In this document: positions 26,741 through 40,364 of the stretch, piece after piece
Layout of the letters: each line of letters starts with the position of its first letter
Position numbering within the stretch: the stretch's first letter is position 1
Origin: Yoonia sp. SS1-5
Lineage (GTDB): Bacteria > Pseudomonadota > Alphaproteobacteria > Rhodobacterales > Rhodobacteraceae
DNA: 64,000 bases
Assembly (NCBI RefSeq): GCF_038443705.2
Contig: NZ_CP151767.2
Location: 1,302,001-1,366,000 of the forward strand
Direction: 5' to 3'
Notes under the pieces: generated by a model
Database searches by the model: none
What the model was told of the DNA's origin: nothing
What the model saw: only the letters and a program-made list of their open reading frames with translations
Program-made: the position numbers and the translations under genes

Positions 26741-27147
26741 TCAGCTATTGTTTCACTCCAAAAAATGGGAAATATTCCCATTGCATTGATTGGTGTAGAG
26801 GGCAGTAATTTAGCGATGGGAGTTCGCAAGAAAGGTCCAACACGACCGCCAGTTCCCAATACTGGATCGCCGGCGGGGTCACAGCGCACTGCCGCACTGA
26901 TCGCCAGCTGCCCCGAGGACATCGACACAATAGCCCGCAATTGCGTCTGTGAGGCCGCAGAAACCGGCCTCAATAACGGCCTCAGGCATGCACGACAGCG
27001 ACCGCGCGATTTATGGCAGCGACGCTCGGGCCGATGGCATGCACGCATTCATGCAAAAGCGAAACCCGGTGTTTCGGCCATAAGACAAGGGCACCAGCAT
27101 AGCATCGGATCGGGGCGCGGAGCCCGAATGCAAGTTTGGAGCGACCA
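26741..27147. other. Gene-free stretch upstream of the first response regulator
   Basis: About 400 nt without a credible gene. It holds a palindrome ATGGGAA-ATA-TTCCCAT at 26765-26781, perhaps an operator, and GC-rich sequence with open frames on both strands but no recognisable protein. The GGAG at 27138-27141 is the ribosome site for the gene that follows. Confidence 0.5.
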
Positions 27148-27831
27148 TTGAAAAATACTGTTATCGTTGCTGATCGCTATGCGTTGATGCGTGATGGCAT
27201 CACGCGCAAGATCGAGGAGTCTAAGCAACTCCAACTTGTCGGCGAGTGCGAGACGGCGTCAGAGGTTGTTGCCGCCTGCATGCGGGCGAAGCCGGACTTG
27301 CTCCTGTTGGACGCGGACCTCGACGGCGCGGATGGCGCCTGTCTTCTGGAGCGTGTTTGCCAGGCCAGCCCAACAACAAAAATTGTGATCATGACAATGG
27401 ACAACTCAATGGTGACCATAATCGGCATGTTGACCAGAGGCGCAGTAGGTTTCGTGCCCAAGCAAGCGGCTGCACGCGACTTCATCTATGCACTATGCGG
27501 TGCGGTCGGCGGATTTGGCACTTTACCGGTCGGCGCCTTGAATGAAATCGTTGCGGCACAGCCAGGGTTCAACAAGAACGGTAATATCTTTGGCCTTTCT
27601 GGGCGGGAGGTTGAAGTATTGCAATGTGTTGTCCAGAAGACCCCTAATCAGAATATCGCGCGGCGGCTTGATATCAGCATTCGAACGGTCGAAACGCATC
27701 GCGCAAACATATTCAAAAAAACGAAATGTCGCGATCTGAACACGCTCAAAGATATCTTGGCGATGATCCCTGATGATGAGAGTATCGAACCGGGTAACCA
27801 GACGCGGACACAAGCCGCAACGCAACGGTAA
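27148..27831 (+). CDS. LuxR-type response regulator (left island flank)
   Basis: A 227-residue NarL/FixJ-like regulator. The receiver spans residues ~2-120 with the phosphoacceptor Asp in DLLLLDADLDG and VPKQA as the usual Lys-containing loop; the LuxR HTH is at ~150-215 (LSGREVEVLQCVVQKTPNQN and ISIRTVETHRANIFKKTKCRD). The TTG at 27148 is the best start: GGAG lies 6 nt upstream, and the chain then begins like its paralogue at 39100-39771. It points into the island. No sensor kinase is nearby. It may bind the shared 19-bp motif upstream of the secretion genes; that is inference. Confidence 0.88.
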   Translation: MKNTVIVADRYALMRDGITRKIEESKQLQLVGECETASEVVAACMRAKPDLLLLDADLDGADGACLLERVCQASPTTKIVIMTMDNSMVTIIGMLTRGAVGFVPKQAAARDFIYALCGAVGGFGTLPVGALNEIVAAQPGFNKNGNIFGLSGREVEVLQCVVQKTPNQNIARRLDISIRTVETHRANIFKKTKCRDLNTLKDILAMIPDDESIEPGNQTRTQAATQR

Positions 27832-27839
27832 CTTGTGAC

Positions 27840-27877
27840 AAAAAAAGGCCGGTTCCAGCGGGAGAACTGGAACCGGC
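27840..27877 (-). terminator. Rho-independent terminator, minus-strand direction
   Basis: An 11-bp perfect stem GCCGGTTCCAG / CTGGAACCGGC with an 8-nt loop has seven A residues on its left side (27840-27846), which read as a U-run for minus-strand transcripts. It would terminate transcription coming from the acidic-repeat gene side (now separated from it by the IS element), and the same hairpin sits 16 nt past the response regulator stop. Confidence 0.75.
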
Positions 27878-27914
27878 AGCGACCAAAAATGGGACAGTCT
27901 TTGGTCGTAGGCGT

Positions 27915-27930
27915 CACGTAAACTTACGTG
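27915..27930. promoter_or_regulatory. Palindrome CACGTAA-AC-TTACGTG at the IS insertion point
   Basis: A perfect 7-bp inverted repeat, CACGTAA / TTACGTG, 2 nt apart. Its last two bases are already the first bases of the IS element; with the element removed, ACGTAA-AC-TTACGT remains intact because of the target duplication. Function unknown: an operator-like site or a preferred insertion target. Confidence 0.45.
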
Positions 27931-29108
27931 TAAAACTTCAGACTTGATCTGACGGACATCTCAGCTTGCGACGCTGAGAACGGGTTGCGCACTGTCCGAT
28001 TGGTCGTGCGTTTTGATCGTCTTCTCGACAGCGATGTGTAGCGTTTCGCGGAAGGTCTGCATAGGTGTTTTGCCATAGCAGTGACGTCCCGAATGTGGCC
28101 GCTGTTCGTTGTACTTTGCCAGCCACGCATCCAGATCGGCCTGCAACTCTTCGACTGACCGATACAGTTTCTTGCGGAATGCGATGTCGTAGAACTCATC
28201 CTTGATGGTGCGATGGAACCGCTCGCAGATGCCGTTTGTTTGCGGAGAATTGGCCTTGGTTCGGGTGTGGTCCACGTCCTCGACGGCCAGATAAAGCTGG
28301 TAGGCGTGGTTCTCGACCTTGCCACAGTATTCCGTGCCCCGGTCTGTCAGGACGCGCAGCAGGCTGATCTCATGCTCTGCAAAGAACGGGATCACGCGGT
28401 CGTTCAGCAAGTCGGCCGCGGTGATTGCCGTCTTTTCAGTGTAGAGCTTGCAGATCGCCACGCGGGCATAGGTATCGACAAAGGTCTGTTGATAAATGCG
28501 TCCGACGCCCTTCATTGTGCCCACATAATAGGTGTCCTGGCTGCCCAGATAGCCAGGGTGGTGGCTCTCGATCTCGCCATGGGCTTCTTTCTTGGCCTTG
28601 GCTTTTTCCAGCGCGGCCAACTGATCCTCGGTGAGCAAGATACCCTCTTGGGCGGCACGGGCCTCCAGGGCCTTGAGGCGCTTTTTCATGGTTTCCAGAT
28701 CATTACGCAGCCAGATCGACCGGACGCCCGACGATGACACCATGATGCCTTTCTGCTGCAGCTCCCACGACGCCCGTTTCTGACCCAGAGCCGGGTTGTC
28801 GATGGCCAGTTCGATGACCGCCTTCTCGACATGTTCTGGCACGCGGTTTTTCATCACCGGCTTGCGGCGGCTGAGATCCATCAGGGCTTCTTCGCCACCC
28901 TGATCGTAAAGTTCTCTGAACCGGTAAAAGCTGTCCCGCGAATAACCCATCACTTTGCAGGCCTGCGACACGCTTCCGAGCTGTTTGGCCAGTTCCAACA
29001 GCCCCAGCTTCGGCTTGATGATCTTCTCTTGAATACTTGTCATTGATCGACACTCCTTGATTGCGCTCCAGAAGAGCAGAAATGTCAGATCAAGTCGTGT
29101 GTTTTACA
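27929..29108 (-). mobile_element. Intact IS481-family insertion sequence
   Basis: A 1,180-bp element. Its ends are inverted repeats that start TGTAAAAC and share GACTTGATCTGAC after a 4-nt variable spacer (27929-27953 and 29084-29108). It is flanked by a 7-bp direct repeat ACTTACG (27922-27928 and 29109-29115), the target duplication. TGT ends and one DDE transposase gene fit IS481. The intact ends and duplication show recent insertion, in the gap just past the stop of the acidic-repeat gene. Confidence 0.9.
27961..29043 (-). CDS. IS481-family DDE transposase
   Basis: A 360-residue transposase. The N-terminal ~110 residues are an HTH region (LAKQLGSVSQACKVMGYSRD, FYRFRELYDQGGEEALMDLS). The integrase-core rve domain follows with the catalytic acids in TFVDTYARVAICKLY (D), LTDRGTEYCG (D) and NGICERFHRTIKDEFYD (E), ending with the usual YNEQRPHSGRHCYGKTPMQTF. 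An AAGGAG site lies upstream of the ATG at 29043. The frame is intact, so the element may be active. Confidence 0.93.
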   Translation of the reverse strand: MTSIQEKIIKPKLGLLELAKQLGSVSQACKVMGYSRDSFYRFRELYDQGGEEALMDLSRRKPVMKNRVPEHVEKAVIELAIDNPALGQKRASWELQQKGIMVSSSGVRSIWLRNDLETMKKRLKALEARAAQEGILLTEDQLAALEKAKAKKEAHGEIESHHPGYLGSQDTYYVGTMKGVGRIYQQTFVDTYARVAICKLYTEKTAITAADLLNDRVIPFFAEHEISLLRVLTDRGTEYCGKVENHAYQLYLAVEDVDHTRTKANSPQTNGICERFHRTIKDEFYDIAFRKKLYRSVEELQADLDAWLAKYNEQRPHSGRHCYGKTPMQTFRETLHIAVEKTIKTHDQSDSAQPVLSVAS

Positions 29109-29128
29109 ACTTACGTATTATTAATCGC

Positions 29129-30337
29129 TTATGCGTTCTCTTCCTCTTCTGGGGTGTCAACGTCATCTGCGGTCAGTTCAAGCTCTTGATACTCTTCATC
29201 AACTTCATCGGCTTGCTGCTGTACTTCGTCGGCGTCACCTTCAACAACCGCGTCAGTGAAATCAGAGACCTCATCAAGGAACTCTTCGGTCTGCAGATCT
29301 ACGCCATCCTCACGAATATCCTCGATTGCGGCTTGCACGTTGTCGGCAGCTTCAGAAATGGCGTCTGGATCACCCGATTCCAGCGCGAGCCGAAGTTCTT
29401 CAAGCGCTTGCTCAAGAAGGTCAAACCCTTGGGGTTCTTCGCTGGCTTCATATTGGTCAAGCTCTTCAAGAACCTCGTTACCCGCATTTTCAATCGCGTC
29501 TTGATCACCTGATGCATAGGCCTCAGCGAAGTCGCCGAATTCCTCGATCACCTCCTGGCCTTGCGCCGAGAGTTCGTTGCCCTCAAGCTGATCAATTTCT
29601 TCGTTCAGCTCGTCACTTGCAAACTCGATCCGGTCTTGGTCGCCACTCTCAACCGCTTCGCCAAAATCAGCGATCTCATCAAGAACTTCGCCAACCTGGC
29701 CATTGAATTTCATGCCCTGATCTTCAAGTTCGTCGATCCGCTCTTCAAGCGCTTCAAGCGCGTCTTTGACCTTCTCTGGATCGCCGGACATGATCGCTTC
29801 GATCAGGTCGCCAAGCTGGGGCGCGATGGCGGATAGCTGTGCCTGCTGCGTATTTCCGCCGCTTTCAGCGCCACCGGACTTACCGCTTCGTCCACCGCGC
29901 TGACCCTTGCCAGCGCCATTTGACCTGTCAGCGTTACCACTGGCGTTGTCCTCGCCCCGCGGGGGCTGGGCGCGGGTTTTCTTGGGCGAAGGGACCGCCT
30001 GCTCTTCGCTGCCGTCAGGCTTGCGACGCATCGCGCCGTCATCCTCTGGCGTTTCGCGTGTTGGTGGCCGCCGGGTTTCATTGCGGGGATCTTCTTCTGG
30101 CAGATCAGAAGGTTTGCCGCTGGTCTCGGTGTCATCCTTGCCATTGGGCGCTTTGTCGCCCTCGCCACCATTCGGCGACTTCGCGTTTGGCTTAGACGGT
30201 GCATCCTTGGGTGGCTTGATCGGCAGATCGCGCAGCAGGTTCAAGCCTTCGCCCTCCGGGCCATTGCCTTTCTTCGCAAACATGTCGGCGATATTCATGA
30301 TCGTATCACGTGCGCCCTCAAGTCCTTTGATGTCCAT
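29129..30337 (-). CDS. 402-residue acidic protein with five 45-residue repeats
   Basis: The N-terminal ~40 residues could be a helix (GLEGARDTIMNIADMFAKK). Residues ~41-165 are low-complexity, Pro/Gly/Lys-rich and probably disordered. Residues ~171-395 form five imperfect repeats of about 45 residues, each with a Ser/Glu-Gly-Asp step (GD at 185, 232, 277, 322 and 367) between acidic helices such as FAEAYASGDQDAIENAGNEV. The C-terminus is very acidic. There is no signal peptide. It lies in the secretion-gene island behind its own copy of the 19-bp motif, 100 nt upstream of the start. It could be a secreted substrate or a needle/tip-associated structural protein; I recognise no family. Confidence 0.8.
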   Translation of the reverse strand: MDIKGLEGARDTIMNIADMFAKKGNGPEGEGLNLLRDLPIKPPKDAPSKPNAKSPNGGEGDKAPNGKDDTETSGKPSDLPEEDPRNETRRPPTRETPEDDGAMRRKPDGSEEQAVPSPKKTRAQPPRGEDNASGNADRSNGAGKGQRGGRSGKSGGAESGGNTQQAQLSAIAPQLGDLIEAIMSGDPEKVKDALEALEERIDELEDQGMKFNGQVGEVLDEIADFGEAVESGDQDRIEFASDELNEEIDQLEGNELSAQGQEVIEEFGDFAEAYASGDQDAIENAGNEVLEELDQYEASEEPQGFDLLEQALEELRLALESGDPDAISEAADNVQAAIEDIREDGVDLQTEEFLDEVSDFTDAVVEGDADEVQQQADEVDEEYQELELTADDVDTPEEEENA

Positions 30338-30437
30338 CTTTATTCTCCTGATCTACCAAATTTGTTTCGTTGATCTTTTTCTAACATCTGGTCTTTGCAA
30401 AAGATCGGGTGGGCATGGCGCAGTTTTCAAAGGCCCA

Positions 30438-30459
30438 CCACGTAATTTGGTACGTACAC
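30438..30459 (-). promoter_or_regulatory. Shared island motif, copy 1 (upstream of acidic-repeat gene)
   Basis: In gene direction the core is TACGTACCAAATTACGTGG, 100 nt upstream of the 30337 start. Two other copies lie at 34709 and 35501; 12 of 19 positions are identical in all three. It contains the half-sites ACGTA and TACGT 6 nt apart, as for a dimeric regulator. Nothing else is supported in the 30338-30605 gap. Confidence 0.6.
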
Positions 30460-30605
30460 AGATGCGTCTCTGGGGTGCGAAAAATTGGGGGTTGTTCGGT
30501 TCGATGCCAAAGGAAAACTGGCCAAGCAAACACGGTTGTCATCGCGCAACGGTCGATACCGCCCGCCATTCAGGCCATGATTGCAGCGGACTGACAACGT
30601 CGCGT

Positions 30606-31373
30606 TTATCGCGCTGCTTCACTATCAATCAAATAGCGGCTGGGGCGGATCTGATAAAGCTCACCGCTGAGCATTGCAGTAATATCAGGCTGCAAAAATC
30701 GGTCGGCCGGGGGTGTTTTAAGAACAAGCGGATCGCCATCGTTGAACAGGGCCGATAGCCGTTGCCACGCACCGGATGTGGACGGACCCACCCCGCGATT
30801 GATCGCCTTTTCTTCTATCGACATGAACAGTCCAGCGCGCGTCTGCAACAGCATATCCTTGAAACCCAGGCGACCGGAAAGAAGCAGCACCGGATCCGCA
30901 TCGTTGACGTTCACAAATGCCATGCTGACGGGCAATGGCAGTGCACTCCCAGTTGTTTCCTGTACATCGTCAGAAGCGACTGCCGCACCCACACTGACGC
31001 TCGGCCAGTGTCTTGCCTGACTATCGCCAGTGTCGTTGCGATATTCCATCACCAAATCGTCAATGCGTTGCGTTTGCGGGTAAGCGCGCTCGCGCGCGGA
31101 CACGCCATCAATGGCTTCGCCAAAGGGCACAGCATTCTCCGGTTGCTGGAGGAAAAAGTTGATCTCGTTGATCGCTTGTCGCCGCGCATCGCGCGAGTCT
31201 GAGATCGCGGCACGCGTCACCTCGGGCCCACGCATACCAAGCCGATCCGGAGGGCTATATGACGCGTCAAATACCAGGCCGTTCGAAGACAGGCGTTGCC
31301 CACGACGTTCACTTAAGGAAATGACGTTCGAAGCCCTGATAAACCGACGAGTGTTGGTTGTTGTTGTTTTCAC
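30606..31373 (-). CDS. Unknown protein in the secretion island
   Basis: About 255 residues if GTG at 31373 is the start (an in-frame TTG at 31385 is also possible; there is no ATG for the first ~45 residues). It begins after the frameshifted response regulator with only a few nt spacing, so it is in the same minus-strand operon. I see no signal peptide, membrane helix or known motif; the middle holds SALPLPVSMAFVNVNDADPV and LLLSGRLGFKDMLLQ, the end ITAMLSGELYQIRPSRYLID. The N-terminal third is Thr/Asn/Arg-rich. Possibly a secreted substrate or assembly factor; unassigned. Confidence 0.65.
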   Translation of the reverse strand: MKTTTTNTRRFIRASNVISLSERRGQRLSSNGLVFDASYSPPDRLGMRGPEVTRAAISDSRDARRQAINEINFFLQQPENAVPFGEAIDGVSARERAYPQTQRIDDLVMEYRNDTGDSQARHWPSVSVGAAVASDDVQETTGSALPLPVSMAFVNVNDADPVLLLSGRLGFKDMLLQTRAGLFMSIEEKAINRGVGPSTSGAWQRLSALFNDGDPLVLKTPPADRFLQPDITAMLSGELYQIRPSRYLIDSEAAR

Positions 31374-31398
31374 TACCCGAACCAATCGGTTGGAAGCA

Positions 31399-32030
31399 TC
31401 AACCTACCCCAATGAGCTCCGCAAGCTCTTTGTGGTCTCGGCAGGATGTCTTCTTGTAAATACTGTTGCGATGGGTCTCAACCGTGCGAACACTGATATT
31501 CAGCGTCTCCGCGACATTCTTTGTCGACATCCCACTGATTGTCGCCTCCAATATCTCTACCTCTCGCGGAGACAGGCCGAAAATATTCCCCGTACGCGTC
31601 AGATGTTTGCGCGACTTTACAAATTCACGCATCAATTCCAATGGGAGATATGCATAACCATACTGCGCCGCCGTAACTGCATTTGCAAAATCATCACCCC
31701 TCGCCTGCTTGGGCATGAAAGCCGCCGCCCCTTTCGAAAGAACAAAAAAGCATTGGTGACCGACGAGTCAGATGATAGGATAATGACCTTTATTTCTGGG
31801 TGCATTGACTGAATTCGGACGAGCACTTCTTTTCCGGATGGGCGGGTAAGGTTGATGTCCATGATAACAATATCAGATGACTCCTTCCGACAGAGTTTCA
31901 GTAGTGTATAACCATCCTCTGCACTTCCGACTATTTCACCGTCGCAGACCTCGCGAATTCGATCTGCAATTCCATCACGTACAATCTCATGGCTGTCCGC
32001 CACAATAACCTTTACCTTAGCATCATCCAT
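31399..32030 (-). pseudogene. LuxR-type response regulator, split by a frameshift at a slippery heptamer
   Basis: The receiver half (start at 32030, MDDAKVKVIVADSHEIVRDG, phosphoacceptor Asp in DIVIMDINLTRP) and the DNA-binding half (GNIFGLSPREVEILEATISG, ISVRTVETHRNSIYKKTSC) are in different frames. The join lies in GCT TTT TTG at 31743-31751: one more T, or a -1 slip of the ribosome at T TTT TTG, restores VLSKGAAAFMPKQA and an intact ~210-residue protein that aligns end to end with the two flanking regulators. The rest of both halves is well conserved. It could be a true -1 frameshifting gene, a sequencing indel in a T6 run, or a recent pseudogene. AAGGA lies before the start. Confidence 0.85.
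31743..31749 (-). other. U UUU UUG slippery heptamer in response-regulator gene
   Basis: On the minus strand the zero-frame codons are GCT TTT TTG, so T TTT TTG fits the X XXY YYZ pattern of -1 programmed frameshifting exactly at the point where the receiver frame must change to the HTH frame. Confidence 0.5.
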
Positions 32031-32112
32031 TGTCTTTTCCTTTTCGTTCCACGCCAACGTTATTTTGCTGGCGATACAAGCATCCCAGGATTTTCCGTGT
32101 CATATGCGCGCA

Positions 32113-32514
32113 TTACATGAGCTTTTGCTGGTCCTCGGCCCAATCGCGTGCCTCCGGTGTTGTGGACATCAGCACTTTCCGTGCAGCATCAATGTCACCG
32201 GAAAGCGCCAATGATCGGCCCAGAAGAAGATATTCGTCACTTGTGAGCGAAAACTTCGGATCTAATGCAAAAAGCTGATTGATTGTTTCGATGACAAGCT
32301 CCGGTTTGTTATGTGCAAAATAGGGCGCAATAAGCATGCGCATCGGCTTTACGTCGTTTGGCTCCATCCAGCATGCGAATTCGAGAAGATGAATTGCGGT
32401 TTCGTACATACCAAATACGGTATGACCCTGGGCAAGTTCGCATAGCAGTTCGATATCTTGCGAACTGCTTGACGACAGGTATCTTGGGATCCTGACCGTT
32501 TCTTGTGAAGTCAT
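32113..32514 (-). CDS. TPR protein, T3SS chaperone-like (SctG/SycD class)
   Basis: A 133-residue all-helical protein with two to three tetratricopeptide repeats: QDIELLCELAQGHTVFGMYE, AIHLLEFACWMEPNDVKPMR and SDEYLLLGRSLALSGDIDAA. Small TPR proteins of this size in type III secretion clusters act as chaperones for needle or translocator subunits (YscG, SycD/LcrH). Here it is the gene before the response regulator and overlaps the upstream unknown gene by 4 nt (ATGA at 32511-32514). The family is inferred from context; the TPR fold itself is clear. Confidence 0.7.
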   Translation of the reverse strand: MTSQETVRIPRYLSSSSSQDIELLCELAQGHTVFGMYETAIHLLEFACWMEPNDVKPMRMLIAPYFAHNKPELVIETINQLFALDPKFSLTSDEYLLLGRSLALSGDIDAARKVLMSTTPEARDWAEDQQKLM

Positions 32515-32957
32515 TTTTCAGGCTCGGGTGGGATGACATAACGCCCCGATTGTGCGCCATATAGGTGTTCAAACATGCGTAGCATCCTTTCCAGTGATAC
32601 AATTCCAGCTTTTGCGCGCCTGTCGCCCGACTGTTCGGCATCCGGCATCATCCTGATGAGCATTTCGGCGATCTGATAAGCGATTTCGGTGGTTTCTCTG
32701 GACGCAAGCGGTGCAACAGCGTCCACCAAAACCGGTTCATCCAGCTCTTCGGTCGTCGACGCCTTTTTTTTGTTAGCCAGCCGAATATGCGGCGGCTGGC
32801 GTTTCACCCGACCGCCCGGTGTACTGCCCAGTAATTGTAGAAATTCCAGAGGTACGGAAACGGCTGTCTTGGGACTCAACCCGGTCGAAACCAATGGATC
32901 AGCCCGGTTTTGCGACGTCGGCTGCGTTACTCTTTTATTATCGACTCTACCCGCCAT
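32511..32957 (-). CDS. Unknown protein between sctD and the TPR gene
   Basis: A 148-residue soluble protein starting MAGRVDNKRVTQPTSQNRAD (GGAAGG ribosome site, 17 nt after the sctD stop). The first ~80 residues are basic and probably disordered (HIRLANKKKASTTEELDEPV); the second half looks helical (ETTEIAYQIAEMLIRMMPDA, GIVSLERMLRMFEHLY). Position and coupling to both neighbours suggest it belongs to the secretion machinery. I cannot match it to any Sct family. Confidence 0.6.
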   Translation of the reverse strand: MAGRVDNKRVTQPTSQNRADPLVSTGLSPKTAVSVPLEFLQLLGSTPGGRVKRQPPHIRLANKKKASTTEELDEPVLVDAVAPLASRETTEIAYQIAEMLIRMMPDAEQSGDRRAKAGIVSLERMLRMFEHLYGAQSGRYVIPPEPEK

Positions 32958-32974
32958 GTACCTTCCAACCCTTC

Positions 32975-33961
32975 CTAGTAGGAAATGACGGCGGTCTCGC
33001 CGTCCTTCTCGATGGTGATGCCCGCGACACTGACATCGGCAATGACCCACCCTCCCAAGACGACATCGCCGGTTGTGACCTTGTTGCCGTCCTCCATCGT
33101 AATTTGGGTCGGCGGTGTAAGTCGGATAGCAGCGATCGGAGGAAAGTTGTGGGGCTTGGGCTGCTTGGCAATGCTCACCTGTAGCAATTGCGGAAACTCG
33201 GCATCAAAGTCCTGGTGGATCCTTTGCCACCGCGACCAATTCGATTCTGGGACGGATCCCGAGATCGCTATCACCTCATCGGTGGCTATCGTTGCGGACA
33301 CCACTTCACTCAGGCCCGCATCTGCCAGACGTTGTTCCAGGAATCCTATTGCATCCGTGTCAGTCTGCACCGGGTCGGCTTCGACCGGGGGATTGGTCAA
33401 AACCGTCAATCGGCGCAGCTGGGTATCCGAACTCATCGTTTCCATCGAAAAGAAGAGACCCAGACCAAGAAGCAACGTTGCGCAAAGACCAAGCCCGATC
33501 CAAAGCTGCGGACCCGTTGGCGGCGCATCGGTGCCAACAGATACGCCGTCGTTGCCAATAAGCGCGGGCAATGCGCTATTGTAACGCGAAATCCTGATCC
33601 GCGTCCCCGCAACATCCAAATCAACAGGCAACAAGTAAGGCTTTCCGGGCACATTCTTCTGCCCGATGACCTCGGTTGGCCCGACAACTTCTTTCAAACT
33701 AATTGCTGCGCCTAGCAGGGTACGGGTAACTTCCAGGCAGACATGATTTTCAAGAACACCTTCGTCAACCAGAAGGACCTCACATTCAGACGCCGAGCCA
33801 ATCCAGATCTCTTGCGTCCGGATCGCACTTCCGGTGCCTTCCTGAATACCGGACATAAAATCGAAACTCAGTGCAACGGCCCCGTTTTCCGGACGCACCT
33901 TCGACTGCATTTCCTTGAAACGGTCGGCAAACACTTCTTTATTTGCTGCGATGACGTCCAT
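32975..33961 (-). CDS. sctD: T3SS inner-membrane ring protein SctD (YscD/PrgH family)
   Basis: 328 residues with the SctD layout: a cytoplasmic FHA-like domain (residues ~30-130, EIWIGSASECEVLLVDEGVL, ISRYNS), one membrane helix at 151-172 (PQLWIGLGLCATLLLGLGLF), then a periplasmic part with a BON-like segment (205-265, FLEQRLADAGLSEVVSATIA) and the conserved C-terminal block IRLTPPTQITMEDGNKVTTG, VVLGGWVIADVSVAGITIEK. The subunit forms the outer of the two inner-membrane rings. It is shorter than usual (~400), so a periplasmic repeat is missing. It lies 23 nt after the sctI-like gene with a GGGGG ribosome site. Confidence 0.8.
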   Translation of the reverse strand: MDVIAANKEVFADRFKEMQSKVRPENGAVALSFDFMSGIQEGTGSAIRTQEIWIGSASECEVLLVDEGVLENHVCLEVTRTLLGAAISLKEVVGPTEVIGQKNVPGKPYLLPVDLDVAGTRIRISRYNSALPALIGNDGVSVGTDAPPTGPQLWIGLGLCATLLLGLGLFFSMETMSSDTQLRRLTVLTNPPVEADPVQTDTDAIGFLEQRLADAGLSEVVSATIATDEVIAISGSVPESNWSRWQRIHQDFDAEFPQLLQVSIAKQPKPHNFPPIAAIRLTPPTQITMEDGNKVTTGDVVLGGWVIADVSVAGITIEKDGETAVISY

Positions 33962-33983
33962 CTGTGTAGTCCCCCTAACTTCC

Positions 33984-34409
33984 CTAACCCGCCTTCAACA
34001 GGTGAGAGATGTCCTTTTGCACCCGCATCGCGATCCCCCAAGCAACGTGATAAACTGTCATATCGCTGTAGAGTTGGCGCGCCCGATCAGTGAGCGCCTC
34101 GGCTTGGCGATCCACCTCGGCCTTTTTGCTGGCGCGCTCGGCACCGGGCCCAGTCGCATCCGAGATGAATTCCTTCTTCGCATCAGTGAGGGAGCCAGCC
34201 TCTTCGCTGCGAAAAACCCGAGATGGGCTCTCACTACCGTGCCCGTCTGGCCCGCCATGCGGCCCTGAAAACAGGGCGCTGGCGGATTCCTGAACCAAAC
34301 CATCAAAGCTCGCGGAAGGATTCGGCGTTTCTTCCATTTGAAGTTGTAGCGGCTGGTTAGCCCCCTGTTGATCAAGGGGTAACGCCCCGCCGGCTGCTTC
34401 CACCCCCAT
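33984..34409 (-). CDS. T3SS inner-rod protein, SctI-like (YscI/PrgJ family)
   Basis: 141 residues. The first ~70 are polar, as in secreted rod proteins (PNPSASFDGLVQESASALFS); the C-terminal helix LYSDMTVYHVAWGIAMRVQK with DISHLLKAG end closely follows the family pattern (…tv...a..vqkdi..Ll.g). SctI proteins polymerise into the inner rod or needle adaptor. The position directly before sctD and after a tiny gene is usual. No good ribosome site is visible at the ATG, so coupling to the upstream gene is likely. Similarity is in the C-terminal 40 residues only. Confidence 0.65.
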   Translation of the reverse strand: MGVEAAGGALPLDQQGANQPLQLQMEETPNPSASFDGLVQESASALFSGPHGGPDGHGSESPSRVFRSEEAGSLTDAKKEFISDATGPGAERASKKAEVDRQAEALTDRARQLYSDMTVYHVAWGIAMRVQKDISHLLKAG

Positions 34410-34443
34410 TTAGCGGGTGCCCAACTGTGGGGATCTCTCGGAA

Positions 34444-34617
34444 TTATTCGCCATCGTTAAATTCCTTCATCACCTCGCTCATTTCATCTTTGATGACGAC
34501 AAACGATATCGCCTGAAGGGCGCCTTCAGTATCAAACCCTTCCTTGTTTGGGTCTGCGTCGTTGTTAGCGCCTGCAGGCGATGCCTTCGGCTGATTTCCG
34601 TTACCACCAATTTCCAT
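34444..34617 (-). CDS. Tiny Gly/Asn-rich protein, possible secreted subunit
   Basis: 57 residues from ATG 34617 (GGAGG 7 nt upstream; an in-frame ATG at 34632 has no such site). The first half is Gly/Asn/Pro-rich (GGNGNQPKASPAGANNDAD); the second half forms a helix ending ISFVVIKDEMSEVMKEF. Small size, secretion-type N-terminus and a C-terminal amphipathic helix recall needle-type subunits, but this is weak. It is the first gene of the minus-strand operon and faces the SctC-like gene across a shared motif copy. Confidence 0.6.
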   Translation of the reverse strand: MEIGGNGNQPKASPAGANNDADPNKEGFDTEGALQAISFVVIKDEMSEVMKEFNDGE

Positions 34618-34708
34618 TGTGTCGACCTCCATGTCGGTTGCTATGGAGCGATTAAAGTCACTCCGGCGTCATTCCGCACTCAGAGTCAGCGACAATGAAC
34701 GTCAGCGC

Positions 34709-34730
34709 CGGTACCTAGATTATTACGTAG
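34709..34730. promoter_or_regulatory. Shared island motif, copy 2 (divergent promoter region)
   Basis: Core TACCTAGATTATTACGTAG, 110 nt before the SctC-like start (+) and 91 nt before the tiny gene (-). Same spacing of half-sites as copies 1 and 3. It could control both divergent units. Confidence 0.6.
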
Positions 34731-34840
34731 TTCGGATGAAAGCCCGTACCATCGCCTAGGATCTTGGAAGAGAATTTCATGGCTGAATGCGTGGCGCTAC
34801 GGCAGCATGTTGGCAACGCAGCAATGGTAAAGCGCCGAAA

Positions 34841-35467
34841 ATGAAAAGACCAAATTACAAATTATCAACTATATTGGGCGCAACTCTGCTGCACGCAATT
34901 ACAGTAATGGCAGGTCCCGCAACGGCCGAAAGTATTGATGATTGCCAAGCACAGGCAGAAACTGAAGAACACTTTGGAAATTATATGGTGTTCAATCAAC
35001 GCATGAGTCAATTCCTTGATGCGATGTCGCAGGATATGGGACTTCGCATTAAAAGATCGGACGCATTGAACCAGCGCCTGAGTGATCTTCATGTTTGCGG
35101 AACTATTGAAAAGATCCTTATGGATTTATCACGGCTTTATGACATAGATTGGTTTTCCTTTAATCAGGTCTATTTCGTATCAGGCCGCAGTGAGGCTGTA
35201 ACGCGCATGATAAGACTGGGCGATATCCGCGGGGCACGCGCGATAGAGGCGCTCGAAAGCAGCGGCGTTGATATGACAAGGTATCCCTTGGCTCTGGCAA
35301 ATAGAAGTACGGCAATTGTTGTAACAGCGCCGCCGCAATTCGTCGCAATCGTTGAGGGTATTGTCGATGATATGAAACCCGAGGTCGTCTCGGTAGGCCC
35401 TGAAGAGGAAAGCAAGATAATCAGAATTCGCAGGGGCACCGCCGTGTCCGAGCATCTTATTCCATAA
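34841..35467 (+). CDS. SctC homologue with only the N0-N1 domains (no secretin)
   Basis: 208 residues. A signal peptide (LSTILGATLLHAITVMAGPA, cleavage near ATA-ES) is followed by the N0 and N1 domains of type III outer-membrane secretins. LSRLYDIDWFSFNQVYFVSG, RMIRLGDIRGARAIEALESS and AIVVTAPPQFVAIVEGIVDD follow the order and spacing of YscC (LYNLVWYYDGNVLYIF..., LIRL..., VYVSGPPRYLELVE). The chain then stops after EEESKIIRIRRGTAVSEHLI; the N3 and pore-forming secretin domains are absent, and nothing downstream up to 35736 encodes them in any frame. The start at 34841 gives a proper signal peptide; an upstream in-frame ATG (34787) does not. It may be a periplasmic remnant or a soluble adaptor. 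Confidence 0.82.
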   Translation: MKRPNYKLSTILGATLLHAITVMAGPATAESIDDCQAQAETEEHFGNYMVFNQRMSQFLDAMSQDMGLRIKRSDALNQRLSDLHVCGTIEKILMDLSRLYDIDWFSFNQVYFVSGRSEAVTRMIRLGDIRGARAIEALESSGVDMTRYPLALANRSTAIVVTAPPQFVAIVEGIVDDMKPEVVSVGPEEESKIIRIRRGTAVSEHLIP

Positions 35468-35500
35468 AAACAAAGACCTATGCGTCGCAACGACGACGCG

Positions 35501-35522
35501 CACTACTTAGTAAATCACGTAG
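35501..35522 (+). promoter_or_regulatory. Shared island motif, copy 3 (upstream of 62-residue gene)
   Basis: Core TACTTAGTAAATCACGTAG, 214 nt before the start at 35737, in the same orientation relative to the gene as copies 1 and 2 (for the SctC-like gene). The rest of the 269-nt gap (35468-35736) holds no gene; AAGGAG lies just before 35737. Confidence 0.55.
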
Positions 35523-35736
35523 TAGCATCTACACACTTCGCAAAGAAAACGTATCGAACATCACAATCAAAGGATGCAGAGTGAAGTCATCGGATAGGCG
35601 GTTCAATAGAGCCGCAAATTCGCAAAGGCCTCGATATGGGGTTATAGTTTAGCCTGATCGTTTTTGATGGCTAAAGTCACGGGGCCTTGGGGCTCAAAAC
35701 TAAAATGCCCGGCTGGGCACATTAAGGAGTACGAAT

Positions 35737-35925
35737 ATGAAAGCTGAAGGTAACAACGGTGGTGGAAACGGTGGTGGCGGCGTCATTGATGAGAAAGGTC
35801 TCGATGATACTGCCGGTCAGGCCAACGAGCTGTTCAACGCCGTGCGGAAAGCGGCAATCAACTATGAGAAGAAGACAGCTGGCGCCAAGTTGGCCCGAGA
35901 CAAAGGTAAAGCAATCACTGGCTAA
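35737..35925 (+). CDS. 62-residue Gly-rich protein, likely abundant
   Basis: Starts MKAEGNNGGGNGGGGVIDEK, then a helical, basic end (AGQANELFNAVRKAAINYEK, KTAGAKLARDKGKAITG). An excellent AAGGAG site 8 nt upstream and a strong terminator 15 nt after the stop, in front of sctV, suggest separate high-level expression, as expected for a structural subunit such as a needle protein. It has no signal peptide and resembles the first tiny protein (34444-34617) in its Gly/Asn-rich N-terminus. It matches no family I know; the needle idea is inference. Confidence 0.65.
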   Translation: MKAEGNNGGGNGGGGVIDEKGLDDTAGQANELFNAVRKAAINYEKKTAGAKLARDKGKAITG

Positions 35926-35940
35926 TAGCTAATGTGATTT

Positions 35941-35972
35941 GGCCGGCCGAGATACCTCGGCCGGCCTTTTTT
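35941..35972 (+). terminator. Strong terminator between the 62-residue gene and sctV
   Basis: A perfect 11-bp stem GGCCGGCCGAG / CTCGGCCGGCC with a 4-nt loop and six T. It lies 15 nt after the small gene's stop and 20 nt before sctV, so sctV is expressed by read-through or a promoter inside this short gap. Confidence 0.92.
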
Positions 35973-35991
35973 CTATGTCGGGGGGCAGGAC

Positions 35992-38121
35992 ATGATACGC
36001 AAGGACGTCATACTCATTGGATTGATTGTCGCCATTCTGGCGCTGATGATCATCCCCCTTCCATCTGACCTGATAGATGTTCTGATCACGATGAATATAT
36101 CGCTGGCGATACTTTTGTTGATGGTCGCTATCTATATCAAACACCCGTCTGATTTTTCGACATTTCCATCCGTTATTCTTATTGGCACCGCGTTTCGATT
36201 GGCGCTTTCAGTTGGAACCACGCGATTAATTCTCGCCGATGCCGATGGTGGCAAGATTATCGAAACCTTCGGTGACTTTGTCGTTTCCGGCAGTGTTGTC
36301 ATTGGTCTTGTTATTTTTCTAATCATAACAGTGGTACAGTTCCTCGTTGTAACCAAAGGGGCCGAGCGCGTCGCTGAAGTTGGCGCGCGTTTTGCACTTG
36401 ATGCTTTGCCTGGAAAACAGATGAGCATCGACGCTGACGTTCGCGCAGGCAATCTTGACCCGGACGACGCGATCGTTAAGCGCAAGCAATTGGACCGCGA
36501 CAGCCAGTTTTTCGGTGCCATGGATGGCGCGATGAAATTTGTCAAAGGCGATGCAATTGCCGGTCTGATCATCACGGTCATCAACCTTGTCGGTGGCATT
36601 GCCATTGGCGTCGGGGTGCATGGGCTTGATTTCGGGGACGCCGCAGCCACCTATTCGCTGCTGACCATCGGGGACGGGCTGGTCGCGCAGATCCCGGCGC
36701 TTATCATGTCCCTTGTCGCAGGTATGATCGTGACCCGCGCGGTCAATGCAGAGAACGTTGACCTTGGGTCTGACATTTTCCGGGAACTTGTCGCTGATGT
36801 CAGGGTCCCTGCCATGGCCGCCGGGGTCATCTTTGCCGTTGGACTGATACCCGGGTTTCCCGTGGTGGCGTTCACAGGGTCCGCCATATTGATGATCGTT
36901 GCGGCACTGGGGCTCCGACGACATTTGCGGCAACAGGAAGAAGACGCCGCACGTGAAGAGGAACTTGCAGCGGAAGAAACCGATGGCCCGGCGGCCTTCA
37001 GCAAGCGTATGCAGTGCCGGATTGGTACCAGCGTCGCAGGTCAGGTGGATATCGACCTCGTGAACACCGAAATCGCCGGCATGTTCGATCAACTTAACAG
37101 CGTCCGCGGCATTTCCTTCCTGCCGCCGCAAATCATCAGCGACGATGATGCCGCCCCCGATTCATTTGTTATCGAACTGGATGAAGTCCCGGTGCGGCAA
37201 CTCACCGTTCCTGCCGATTCTCTTTTGGTTGTTGGTGAAGATGAAGTCATCGGGCTGATTAACGCCACGCCCCAAGATATCGTCAGCGTTGATATGCTGT
37301 CGGGCCCCAATCTGTGGATCCCGTCATTCTACGGGCCGCGCCTGAAAGCGCTCAACCTTGAAATCCGTCGTAAGGAATTGGCTTTGGCCGAGTTTGTCTT
37401 CCGGATTTATGAGCAGAATCTCGGCCTGCTCTTCGGCAAACCCGAGTTCGAGACAATACTTGCTGAATTAACCGAGGTTGATGAAACCACCAGTGGCGAA
37501 GTTGAGGAGTCTGTGACGCGACAAGGGTTGTTCCAGGTCTTCCGCTATCTGATCGAGGATGGCGTACCACTCCGCCCCGTCGCTCTCGTGGTTGATTCCC
37601 TATCTCACTGGTCGCAGGTCAATGAAGGGGCGGCGCCAGAGATGCTCGCCGAACTTATGCGCGGTTCGATGAAACGCCAGCTGTGCCGCATGATTGCAGG
37701 AAAGGGAAATCTGCTTGGACTTGCCATGATCGACCCAGACTTGGAGAAGCTTGCGCGCCAGGAGCTTTCAGACCTGAAACGTAGTGGCGCGATGGCCGGG
37801 GTTGATGGGTTGGTTTTTGATCCCGACATTACTGACGTCCTGATCGGCAAGTTCGAACGCTTGAACCAAGCGCAAAAGCACAGCGACGGCCAATTGGCGA
37901 TTGTCGTGTCGTCAGACCTGCGCCGCCGGCTACAACATTTCCTCGCAGCCAACCGGATACATATTCCGGTACTCGCCCCGCATGAGCTATCGCCTGATGT
38001 CACCACCTTTCCTATCGAGCTGTTGTCGCTCGATGAGGTTGAGTCGCAAATTGACCCGCGCGTTCTTGGACGTCGTGAAGAAGCGAAACTGTTTGATGAA
38101 ACGAACGCGCCGGTTCACTAG
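35992..38121 (+). CDS. sctV: T3SS export-gate protein SctV (FlhA/YscV family)
   Basis: 709 residues, full length. The N-terminal ~330 residues hold eight membrane helices; the FHIPEP signature is at ~126-148 (RVAEVGARFALDALPGKQM, SIDAD) followed by AIVKRKQLDRDSQFFGAMDG and the helix GLIITVINLVGGI. The C-terminal cytoplasmic part (~345-709) forms the nonameric ring that docks substrates. The FlhA (flagellar) and SctV (injectisome) families are homologous; no flagellar gene is present here but sctD, sctI-like and SctC-like genes are, so SctV is preferred. A GGGGGCAGG site precedes the ATG. Confidence 0.9.
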   Translation: MIRKDVILIGLIVAILALMIIPLPSDLIDVLITMNISLAILLLMVAIYIKHPSDFSTFPSVILIGTAFRLALSVGTTRLILADADGGKIIETFGDFVVSGSVVIGLVIFLIITVVQFLVVTKGAERVAEVGARFALDALPGKQMSIDADVRAGNLDPDDAIVKRKQLDRDSQFFGAMDGAMKFVKGDAIAGLIITVINLVGGIAIGVGVHGLDFGDAAATYSLLTIGDGLVAQIPALIMSLVAGMIVTRAVNAENVDLGSDIFRELVADVRVPAMAAGVIFAVGLIPGFPVVAFTGSAILMIVAALGLRRHLRQQEEDAAREEELAAEETDGPAAFSKRMQCRIGTSVAGQVDIDLVNTEIAGMFDQLNSVRGISFLPPQIISDDDAAPDSFVIELDEVPVRQLTVPADSLLVVGEDEVIGLINATPQDIVSVDMLSGPNLWIPSFYGPRLKALNLEIRRKELALAEFVFRIYEQNLGLLFGKPEFETILAELTEVDETTSGEVEESVTRQGLFQVFRYLIEDGVPLRPVALVVDSLSHWSQVNEGAAPEMLAELMRGSMKRQLCRMIAGKGNLLGLAMIDPDLEKLARQELSDLKRSGAMAGVDGLVFDPDITDVLIGKFERLNQAQKHSDGQLAIVVSSDLRRRLQHFLAANRIHIPVLAPHELSPDVTTFPIELLSLDEVESQIDPRVLGRREEAKLFDETNAPVH

Positions 38122-38197
38122 AGCTGCATCCATATTCGTTGATCGGGCGAACGGCAGCACGCGCCGCACAAGGGGCAGCAAACTAATACCAACTTAG

Positions 38198-38962
38198 ATG
38201 GGAATGAATAGAATGCCGCTGGATTCACGAAAGACCTATTCAGAACTGACCGACCTATATGATCTTATGTGCAATGATCGTGGGCACGAGGCCAAATTCT
38301 ATGCAAGCTACATCGACCACGGCCGCGATTTTCTAGAGGCTGGATGCGGTACAGGGCTGTTGACCGAGCAGCTGCAAATGCTCGGCTATCAGGTTTTTGG
38401 AATCGATAATTCGAAAGAAATGCTCTCTGTGTGCAAAACGCGGTGCCCGGATGTACCGACTGTGCAGGCCGATATGCGCGATTTCGATCTGGGGCGAAAA
38501 TTTGATCTGGTGACTATTCCTTACAACACGCTTTCCCATATCATGACACAAGCGGACTTGCTCAAAACGTTTCAATGTATGCAGCAACATTGTAGGCCGG
38601 GGGGCCGGTTTATTTTTTCGCTTCATCACCACGCGCCTGACGTTCACCAATGCACTTGGGCGGGCGTTGGCGTTCCACGGTTTTATGACAAAGTATCCGG
38701 CGAAATCAGTACGATCATCCGAACCTATGAGGTGGTCGCGAAGGAACGACGCCTGACGATGACGTGGAACGTGACGTGCCCGGACACGTTGGAGATCCGG
38801 CGGCGACACACAATCGACACTAGGCTGCATAGCCGGGGTGACCTGACTGCGGCCTTACAAGAAGCTGGTTTCGAAATCGAAGATTTATTTGAGGATGAGA
38901 ACAAGAAACCATTCTCTGACAGCAGTCGGAATCAAGTATTTGTCGCGAAATCGGTGCTTTGA
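38198..38962 (+). CDS. Class I SAM-dependent methyltransferase
   Basis: 254 residues. Motif I is FLEAGCGTGLLTEQLQMLGY with the acidic residue GIDNS after it; later VQADMRDFDLGRKFDLVTIP is motif II-like and FIFSLHHHAPDVHQCTWAGV follows. It starts 76 nt after sctV in the same direction (ATG at 38198, 38204 or 38213; no clear ribosome site), so it may share the transcript. Such enzymes methylate small molecules or proteins; modification of a secretion component is a possibility only. No link to a particular substrate is visible. Confidence 0.8.
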   Translation: MGMNRMPLDSRKTYSELTDLYDLMCNDRGHEAKFYASYIDHGRDFLEAGCGTGLLTEQLQMLGYQVFGIDNSKEMLSVCKTRCPDVPTVQADMRDFDLGRKFDLVTIPYNTLSHIMTQADLLKTFQCMQQHCRPGGRFIFSLHHHAPDVHQCTWAGVGVPRFYDKVSGEISTIIRTYEVVAKERRLTMTWNVTCPDTLEIRRRHTIDTRLHSRGDLTAALQEAGFEIEDLFEDENKKPFSDSSRNQVFVAKSVL

Positions 38963-38993
38963 TAGCTGAATAGCCTCAAGTGCTATGAACGCC

Positions 38994-39039
38994 ACATATC
39001 GCCAGTGTCGGCTTTCGCCGTCTTCAGCCGATATGTTTT
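38994..39039 (+). terminator. Possible terminator after the methyltransferase gene
   Basis: ACATATCG and CGATATGT, 27 nt apart with a second small stem between them, followed by TTTT. It lies between the convergent methyltransferase and response regulator genes. Weak. Confidence 0.35.
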
Positions 39040-39099
39040 ACGGTGATCTGATCAGTTGCCACCAATTTGGTCGCTCTGGACCAAAGTTGACCGAACCTA

Positions 39100-39771
39100 T
39101 TACGCAAACTTTCTGGTCGCAGCTGGCGTTTTTGGCGCTTTTGACGGGACGATGTTCCGCGCAATATCTTTGAGCGCTTCCATGTCACGGCATTTCGTTT
39201 TCTTGTAAATGTTGGCGCGATGTGTCTCAACCGTGCGAATGCTGATACGCAGTTCGTGTGCGACCAACTTATTTGATTTTCCGTCAACGCAATATTCTAG
39301 AACTTCCAACTCGCGAGAAGAAAGCCCAAAAATATTCCCTGTCTTGTTGAAGCACGGTTGCGCTGTCACAATCTCATTCAGCGCAACCACAGGGAGAAAT
39401 CCAAAACCGTTGGCGACGCTGTACAGTGCGTGAACGAAATCTTTCGCACTGGCCTGACGTGGTACGATGCCACTGACACCCACATTAAGCATACTGACGA
39501 CCGGAAGCATTGATGTATCCGACGCCATTGCCACCCCTCTTGTTTCGGGGCATTTGACTGCTAGCCTGTCAAGCAGACCTTGCCCATTCAATCCGTCAAG
39601 TTCGATGTCAACGAGCAGCAGATCTGGTTGCGGTTGACCACAAAGCTTAAGCGTTTCGTATCCCGTTCGGCATTCGCATATCAGATCGAGATGCGCGCTA
39701 CCTTCAATATGATGAACGATCCCTGATCTCATCAGTTCGAAACTATCCGCGACGACGACTGTGCTTTGCAT
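39100..39771 (-). CDS. LuxR-type response regulator (right island flank)
   Basis: 223 residues from ATG 39771, preceded by AGGGAGGGAAAAG. It is a close paralogue of the regulator at 27148-27831: receiver with DLLLVDIELDG (phosphoacceptor Asp) and VPRQASAKDF, HTH with LSSRELEVLEYCVDGKSNKL and ISIRTVETHRANIYKKTKC. It points into the island from the right, mirroring the left copy. An inverted repeat ACGCAATC-A-GATTGCGT lies 73 nt upstream of its start. No partner kinase is nearby. Confidence 0.88.
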   Translation of the reverse strand: MQSTVVVADSFELMRSGIVHHIEGSAHLDLICECRTGYETLKLCGQPQPDLLLVDIELDGLNGQGLLDRLAVKCPETRGVAMASDTSMLPVVSMLNVGVSGIVPRQASAKDFVHALYSVANGFGFLPVVALNEIVTAQPCFNKTGNIFGLSSRELEVLEYCVDGKSNKLVAHELRISIRTVETHRANIYKKTKCRDMEALKDIARNIVPSKAPKTPAATRKFA

Positions 39772-39843
39772 GTTTTCTTTTCCCTCCCTAGGTGGAGCCA
39801 TTTGGCGACTATCGGGATCACTAAACGGTCGCAGTAATACGCA

Positions 39844-39860
39844 ACGCAATCAGATTGCGT
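39844..39860. promoter_or_regulatory. Palindrome ACGCAATC-A-GATTGCGT upstream of the right response regulator
   Basis: A perfect 8-bp inverted repeat, 73 nt upstream of the regulator start and within its promoter region. It could be its own operator. It differs from the shared TAC..TACGTAG motif. Confidence 0.5.
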
Positions 39861-40364
39861 AATGTTTCGAACTATTTAGCGGAATCCCCACCCCACTACA
39901 GAAAGATTAACGCAAGATTAACGGATGCCTAGTATTTTTTTCTGTTTTTGGGAAAAAAAACCATTTTCTGCCCGGTTTGCTCATCTTTCGGGCGCAAACT
40001 TGCGCTCTCCGATGGATTGTTGCCGTTTGGGGTCCAATCAACCGCAGGATAGTGGGTTCGCGCAATCTCAATATACCAAAGAGAGCGAAAATTCCCCGGT
40101 TTGGGTTGTCTTTTGCGAATCATCTTGACGACATATGGACCCGTCGCAGGTTGGTGCCGCTGCTTTGCCCGCGTTTACGACGGCAAAGGCGACAGCAGGG
40201 CGGTGAGGTTTGCGCCTGATGCTGACGCAATTGGGCGTTGCATCATTCGGAACCTGCTTTGACGTGTGTGGTAAACACGCGCGGACCTGGCCATAAGCAC
40301 ATCTATCCAATACCTTGACCTTGTGTCATACTCCACTCGTATTATTATGACGAGGGAGGGCCGC
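39861..40364. other. Gene-free stretch at the right edge of the island
   Basis: About 500 nt without a supported gene. It begins AT-rich (T- and A-runs at 39935-39960) and becomes GC-rich toward 40200, where ordinary base composition returns. No tRNA, integrase or direct repeat marking an island end was seen. The GAGGGAGGG site at 40352-40360 belongs to the next gene. Confidence 0.5.

Follow-up and report, generated by a model that had tools for sequence, protein, structure and literature searches.

A type III secretion system with no recognised secretin pore in Yoonia sp. SS1-5 and its relatives

The window analysed here, a stretch of 64,000 nt from Yoonia sp. SS1-5 (NZ_CP151767.2, 1,302,001-1,366,000; coordinates given below without a contig or locus name are window positions), contains an island spanning 27136-39849 that encodes part of a type III secretion system (T3SS), including the export gate protein SctV, the inner-membrane ring protein SctD, a putative inner rod protein (SctI), an SctY-like TPR protein and a protein (SctC-N) that corresponds to the N-domains of SctC without its secretin pore (Table 1). 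LuxR-type regulators lie at both edges, and the island stands out as a dip in G+C content (~0.50-0.55, versus 0.56-0.63 elsewhere in the window). Transcription is on the minus strand from an IS481-family insertion sequence (IS) at 27928 through a 62-aa open reading frame (ORF) that ends at 34632, and on the plus strand for the first regulator and then from SctC-N to a methyltransferase gene. The original prediction, made from the window alone, had described an island lacking SctN, J, Q, L, R, S, T and U, which is true of the window but not of the organism, as all of them are encoded at a second locus (C2:3,756,980-3,764,643).

The predicted identity of sctV as a non-flagellar gene was borne out, since the protein scores 595.6 bits with the T3SS model TIGR01399 versus 498.4 bits with the FlhA model TIGR01398 (both below the curated cut-offs) and falls among non-flagellar systems in a tree, where it groups away from the FlhA of its own genome (a partial sequence). 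This separate flagellar FlhA is located near another FliP at C2:2.76 Mb. Hidden Markov models (HMMs) give SctV good support and the SctD, SctC-N and SctY proteins moderate support, the latter three matching T3SS models below the curated cut-offs. For SctD, the match to TIGR02500 reaches 67.2 bits (curated cut-off 86), that to the Pfam YscD Bon-like domain 3 (PF21934, 4.4e-8) lies above its cut-off, and the C-terminus resembles that of rhizobial Y4yQ (Y4YQ_C, PF23893, 8.4e-5, below cut-off). The TPR gene, anticipated as a chaperone gene, has HMM matches to its SctY-like product at the clusters of all nine relatives described below. Neither of the outcomes named beforehand as refuting the original prediction came about, although SctI is without HMM support.

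SctC-N is a protein of 226 aa with an N-terminus that reads like a signal peptide (its true start is likely at 34841), and it ends after the N1 domain. It aligns with positions 7-137 only of the 463 positions of TIGR02516 (2.3e-12, below cut-off) and has no Secretin pore domain, as had been predicted. A profile built from 13 homologues matches InvG, MxiD and EscC in the PDB over N0-N1 (E-values of 1.4e-17 to 3.5e-10), aligning with residues 8-171 of the 566 of MxiD. The pore of a canonical injectisome (SctC with its secretin domain) was not found for the window system. RhcC1 among the core genes is a trait of the rhizobial (Rhc) T3SSs, and RhcC1 without RhcC2 a trait of their subgroup III; both are found in the window system.

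A genome search with the FliP/SctR family revealed two copies, one flagellar (C2:2.76 Mb) and one at C2:3.76 Mb, the latter within the second locus, whose operon order is SctJ-(K)-L-N-(O)-Q-R-S-T-U (L003 4981-12644; G+C 0.49-0.58). The two T3SS loci are 2.43 Mb apart along one 4.13-Mb contig. SctJ scores above the NCBIfam cut-off (5e-51) and SctR above that of a YscR subfamily model, and SctN, L, Q, T and U have T3SS models as their best matches, all below cut-offs, the margin over FlhB being narrow for SctU (165.6 versus 154.4 bits). FliQ models fit SctS equally well (1.4e-14 versus 2.4e-14). SctK and SctO are likely also encoded there: the SctO-like protein has a weak FliJ match (3.6e-4), and SctK, which is without informative match, belongs to an ORF family found at the same place in the loci of six relatives. 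The genome therefore holds a non-flagellar T3SS core comprising SctV, N, J, Q, R, S, T and U, and the machine as a whole is nearly complete. A reduced machine with a different set of partners, one of the two alternatives in the original prediction, is therefore wrong for the core; the part of that alternative that stands concerns the secretin, for which no pore half was found outside a Tad operon.

Relatives of the system were collected by two surveys, a search of 394 family genomes for the SctC-N protein, which located SctC-like open frames, 194-338 aa long, at 13 sites in 11 genomes (the window genome included), and a collection scan with a five-sequence SctV alignment, of which the best 80 of 525 relatives were used. 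Together they yielded nine close relatives, which form a 10-member clade with the window genome: L019 (genome G342), L020 (G022), L021 (G286), L023 (G126), L048 (G394), L049 (taken with G385:C12 as one genome), L050 (G395), L051 (G396) and L056 (G397). All of them carry a T3SS cluster. The two halves seen in Yoonia sp. SS1-5 are present in a single locus in eight of the nine, and in the ninth (G126) SctV lies 1.2 kb from a contig end.

Searching the 10 clade genomes with Pfam Secretin (PF00263) uncovered 14 secretins, of which nine group with Tad secretins and one (in G342) with RhcC2 in a 73-row tree; the remaining four (G126, G394 twice and G396) score above the GspD cut-off and were counted as type II secretins. 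One of these four, at L156 of G394, is placed by the tree, weakly supported (96/68), beside the long secretins of L062 and L064, two T3SS loci from another branch. In G342, the RhcC2-type secretin comes after the SctV of another, separate T3SS, 124 kb from the clade system, so that an RhcC2 pore attached to the clade system was found in none of the 10 clade genomes. In the window genome, which is 99.97% complete, the single PF00263 match is the secretin of a Tad pilus, in an operon with RcpC, OmpA-domain, AAA, T2SSE, TadB/C and T2SSF genes; a T3SS-dedicated secretin elsewhere in this genome was thus rejected, none being found by the Secretin search. The same model detects RhcC2-type secretins at the T3SS clusters of G150, G400, G401, G402 and G403, as well as at the second T3SS of G342. 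The only clade genome in which this search found no secretin is G395, a 3.1-Mb metagenome-assembled genome (MAG) of which the completeness is not stated and which has two SctC-N genes, one ~5 kb past the end of locus L050 and the other on another contig.

We also considered a shared outer-membrane candidate, comparing 799 unassigned ORFs from 11 loci (two of them from the window genome) all against all. The families present in at least four loci were an SctK-like one (six loci), an SctO-like one (four), two sets of small frames (four each) and one mixed set (four) whose members are histidine kinases and one GST by Pfam, and the candidate was rejected, although this result leaves room for a channel too diverged to match. 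Contig C15 of G342 (L173, L019) carries two different T3SSs ~124 kb apart, one with and one without an RhcC2-type secretin. In G286 (L021, L022), where no RhcC2-type secretin was found, two T3SSs that belong to different branches each have SctC-N, and G395 (L050, L063, L187, L190) is a Neomegalonema MAG with two T3SS clusters. A further instance of secretin recruitment may be found on contig C270 of G147 (L027, L047), where the immediate neighbours of a very divergent Tad-like secretin (76.9 bits) are a long-branch SctV and an SctC-N gene.

In SctV trees the 10 systems form one clade (100/100) beside the rhizobial systems, apart from NGR234 (subgroup I) and from the Pseudomonas/Mesorhizobium/Cereibacter systems, and neighbouring the alphaproteobacterial MAG systems L053 and L061 (99/98). 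The first of these trees left out the duplicates L024 and L074 and ORFs shorter than 540 aa, the SctV of G022 (L020 5799-7933), which reads as frames of 546 and 468 aa owing to a frameshift or sequencing error, being entered as its 546-aa piece; the second added Rhizobium etli and NGR234 to 53 of the rows of the first. The genome of L053 (G398) also has SctC-N, and the one secretin found in it shows the Tad architecture and does not fall within the RhcC2 part of the secretin tree. R. etli SctV sits on a very long separate branch, and its grouping with the clade was neither established nor rejected (approximately unbiased test, p 0.213). A tree of eight genes (32 taxa; L023 had too little data and was left out), if rooted on non-Rhc systems, places R. 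etli beside the clade plus L053 (96.2/96), whereas a seven-gene tree (37 taxa) with a two-gene flagellar outgroup left its position without resolution; we distrusted the flagellar rooting of the concatenated tree, as the two-gene outgroup joins the longest branch, R. etli. These sequence comparisons suggest that all RhcC1-only systems, including that of R. etli, may share common descent. On the subgroup I side, two other Rhodobacteraceae systems, the second one of G286 and that of G221, likewise have SctC-N, with no RhcC2-type secretin in a genome search, indicating that the RhcC2-less state arose more than once or is easily reached by loss.

The small ORFs at the positions expected for rod and needle genes are less easily assigned. 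The predicted sctI-like gene keeps its position and its C-terminal pattern, common to the 10 clade members in an alignment, and no NCBIfam, Pfam or PDB match (PDB profile search included) was found for its product. The 62-aa ORF upstream of it has a small counterpart at the same place in all nine relatives, with weak similarity (12-33%, some of the relatives' ORFs having been trimmed to a later start), as does the 62-aa ORF before sctV (13-21%; for L048 the aligned row is taken from the end of a 196-aa ORF, and the L019 row was trimmed). The latter is a candidate for the needle gene, and its product had no match to PDB needle profiles. Between sctC and sctV, G126 encodes a 468-aa protein (L023 3825-5231) in which acidic motifs recur and which may be secreted or located at the surface.

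Table 1. The T3SS island of Yoonia sp. SS1-5, by window position
Feature	Position	Strand	Evidence
LuxR-type response regulator, left island edge	27136..27831	+	NCBIfam response-regulator models, best 3.2e-28, below cut-off
IS481-family insertion sequence	27928..29108	-	NF033577 8.9e-88; own 7-bp target duplication ACTTACG
402-aa acidic repeat protein, possible secreted substrate	29129..30337	-	ORF; sole match at curated cut-off is a marginal NTF2_YvbJ (25.5 vs 25 bits)
259-aa protein	30606..31385	-	Weak relatives beside clusters of L021, L048, L051
LuxR-type response regulator, frameshifted around 31.7 kb	31399..32057	-	Two overlapping ORFs and sequence
TPR protein, SctY-like assembly chaperone	32113..32514	-	NF052415 1.9e-6, below cut-off
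Conserved protein between sctD and sctY	32511..33050	-	HMM matches at 7/9 relatives' loci
SctD, inner-membrane ring	32975..33961	-	TIGR02500 1.2e-18; PF21934 4.4e-8; PF23893 8.4e-5
Putative SctI (inner rod)	33984..34409	-	Position; conserved C-terminus in 10-member alignment
Tiny acidic 62-aa ORF upstream of sctI	34444..34632	-	Small ORF at same place in 9/9 relatives
SctC N-domain protein, RhcC1-like, without secretin pore	34787..35467	+	TIGR02516 positions 7-137 of 463
Tiny 62-aa ORF, Gly-rich N-terminus, directly before sctV	35737..35925	+	10-member alignment
SctV, export gate	35992..38121	+	TIGR01399 1.2e-178; trees
SAM-dependent methyltransferase	38198..38962	+	NCBIfam
LuxR-type response regulator, right island edge	39100..39849	-	ORF; similarity to regulators beside relatives' clusters

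Among the remaining genes of the island, the conserved protein between sctD and sctY, whose real start is probably further downstream, was matched in L019, L020, L021, L023, L048, L049 and L050 and not in L051 or L056, and no counterpart of the methyltransferase was found at the relatives' loci. The two flanking response regulators of the original prediction are real, and our analysis adds to them the IS481 element and the third, frameshifted LuxR-type regulator. The IS481-family element has undergone a recent expansion: the genome has no fewer than 25 near-identical copies of it (40 of 65 candidates scored), at least five of them on contig C1. A second copy interrupts an acidic-protein gene after sctU (L003 12766-13365), of which L048 and L051 have longer homologues (259 and 267 aa).

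How the system came to occupy two places is best addressed with a congener, G294, in which SctC was not found in the first survey. Nine ORFs left of the island, together with a gene that we take to be Bax1-like, are collinear between G294 and the window genome, and ~2.6 kb further on G294 continues with the genes left of the second locus (presumably Lrp-like and PutA-like genes, with a TPR gene), collinear over 16 ORFs and in the opposite sense. Because the genes that flank the two halves on their outer left sides thus adjoin in G294, we infer a single cluster that was probably split by a large later inversion with one breakpoint between the ends of sctV and sctU, which would lie beyond the right-edge regulator at 39850-40322. 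Before such an inversion the order should have been sctC, sctV and then a convergent sctU running towards sctJ, and this order is seen in L048 and, up to its contig end in sctN, in L020. Weighing against the inversion, its second breakpoint was not recovered in G294, and the 2.6-kb gap there holds tRNA-Tyr and tRNA-Leu genes that are absent from the fetched junctions of the window genome. (The tRNA-Tyr and tRNA-Leu(taa) genes of G294 are at L198 13476-14723.) The original prediction had envisaged, as one alternative, a system spread over several loci as in chlamydiae; two loci there are, but with one cluster in eight of nine relatives, the congener's adjoining flanks and the convergent order of L048 and L020, we rejected original scattering of this kind, and regard a split present from the outset, whether by two separate acquisitions or by chlamydia-like dispersal, as very improbable, even though the loci are far apart and chlamydial and some other systems are described as scattered in the available part of PMC3459982. 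Recombination between the IS481 copies at the two loci, which the identical elements in both halves might invite, is hardly credible as the cause of the split: these two local copies point the same way and each still has a 7-bp target duplication of its own, which disfavours exchange or inversion between them, and this pair was rejected as the cause. The signs of damage could instead mean that the machine has lost its pore and is on its way out. Indeed, a frameshifted regulator (31399..32057), an acidic-protein gene beside sctU cut by an IS, a split cluster and at least 25 IS481 copies, as well as the SctV of G022 in two overlapping frames (in a MAG that is 85% complete), all fit this reading, and the regulator, the cut acidic-protein gene and the G022 SctV also count against a working machine. 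Yet the core genes of the window genome are open, with lengths about as in the relatives, and its damage concerns accessory genes. Moreover, the pore-less state must be old and the core kept since then, because this state is common to a diverged 10-member clade with 46-54% SctV identity to that of the window; we therefore consider a decaying remnant improbable.

We are fairly confident of the anatomy, the two-locus split and the missing pore taken together, and the less certain matter is how substrates would cross the outer membrane. In T3SSs, SctV, R, S, T and U constitute the export gate, SctN, L, O, Q and K the sorting platform, and SctJ and SctD the inner rings. Here the gate and an SctN-L-O-Q platform would export through the SctD/SctJ double ring, and SctC-N would cap this ring in the periplasm, where it could act as an adaptor to an outer-membrane channel encoded elsewhere; its pairing with SctD is suggested by RhcC1 and by the Y4yQ-like SctD. 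In the published split, RhcC1 keeps the part that contacts SctD and RhcC2 is a Tad-derived pore (PMC3459982, PMC4500985), and it has been proposed that RhcC1 links SctD to a Tad-type secretin (PMC3459982). By this analogy, the borrowed channel might be the resident Tad-type secretin, the likeliest of the options although our confidence in it falls short of even, and we think it unlikely that a channel of an unrecognised kind is used instead. A Tad secretin is present in nine of 10 clade genomes, but this co-occurrence was dropped as evidence, the Tad-type N-domain being found in 105 of 120 family genomes. RhcC2-type secretins carry this domain too. The clade MAG G395, which is a counterexample unless incomplete, speaks against sharing with the pilus, and homology searches gave no match for the needle, inner rod or translocators of the proposed machine (for translocators, in general family scans). 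The main rival, towards which we lean less but which we take seriously, is that the system lacks an outer-membrane pore altogether and works at the inner membrane or in the periplasm, or in the manner of the Myxococcus T3SS* acting together with a Tad-like pilus. The absence of any cognate pore from the matches in the 10 clade genomes, and of any secretin from those in G395, would fit, and a secretin-less, needleless T3SS* is on record in the accessible portions of PMC12075869 and PMC3459982. It is harder to reconcile with SctC-N, which is expected to cap the ring under a secretin and is kept in 10 of 10 clade genomes, G395 included; and the Myxococcus systems are described without secretin, needle and translocon, whereas the rod- and needle-position ORFs, albeit with no homology support, are kept here. 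Extending the idea of a Tad secretin used in trans, a single lineage could comprise all the pore-less Rhc systems: those of the marine clade and of L053, its sister, that of R. etli, and the second system of the Neomegalonema MAG G395. SctC would have been shortened to N0-N1 there before the Tad-like RhcC2 was recruited, or without such recruitment, and the housekeeping Tad secretin would serve instead. We offer this as speculation and doubt that it holds in full; if it did, pilus and T3SS would share one outer-membrane pore.

RhcC1 without RhcC2 is known from R. etli, for which the crossing of the outer membrane has been called a mystery (PMC4500985) and which is the published RhcC1-only case in the part of PMC3574062 available. 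Within the Roseobacter group, the account of Epibacterium ulvae reports a full set of T3SS genes and, in its available text, contains nothing on the secretin (PMC7989816), and a survey of marine genomes lists T3SSs in six of 119 (PMC2702493, available part). No RhcC1-only T3SS of Rhodobacteraceae was described in the titles and abstract beginnings among the papers listed; most of the subscription literature lay outside this search, so that novelty is unproved. What we add is that the RhcC1-only state is conserved across a marine clade. Ten systems with type III cores, one of them in the named cultured strain Zongyanglinia marina DSW4-44 (L056), make the outer-membrane question testable outside plant symbionts, and bear on the order in which pore loss and RhcC2 recruitment took place. 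Should the pilus secretin be shared, secretins would be interchangeable modules; should no secretin be used, T3SSs could work without one outside the Myxococcales. The split, for its part, illustrates a rearrangement that cuts a cluster in two while the core genes of both halves are still open.

Compared with known systems, the flagellar export apparatus is homologous in SctV/FlhA, SctR/FliP and other components, but the genome has a separate flagellar set, and T3SS models give the best scores for its SctV and SctR. The T3SSs of Rhc subgroups I and II (NGR234, Bradyrhizobium, Mesorhizobium and Pseudomonas T3SS-2) share the short SctC (RhcC1) and the Y4yQ-like SctD, yet they form separate clades in the trees and are described as having the Tad-like pore RhcC2 (PMC3574062, PMC3459982, as far as available), which adjoins sctV in many loci that we fetched. 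In the subgroup III system of R. etli, RhcC1 is present and RhcC2 is reported absent (PMC3574062, PMC4500985, in their available text), the core is non-flagellar, and SctD and SctC-N are recognised in p42d. It differs in its accessory genes (pectate lyase) and in that the available part of PMC3574062 reports no SctO-like or SctY-like protein there. The needleless T3SS* of Myxococcus likewise has no cognate secretin, and a Tad-type pilus is present in the window genome as well; the window system, unlike it, keeps an SctC N-domain protein together with ORFs at the rod and needle positions.

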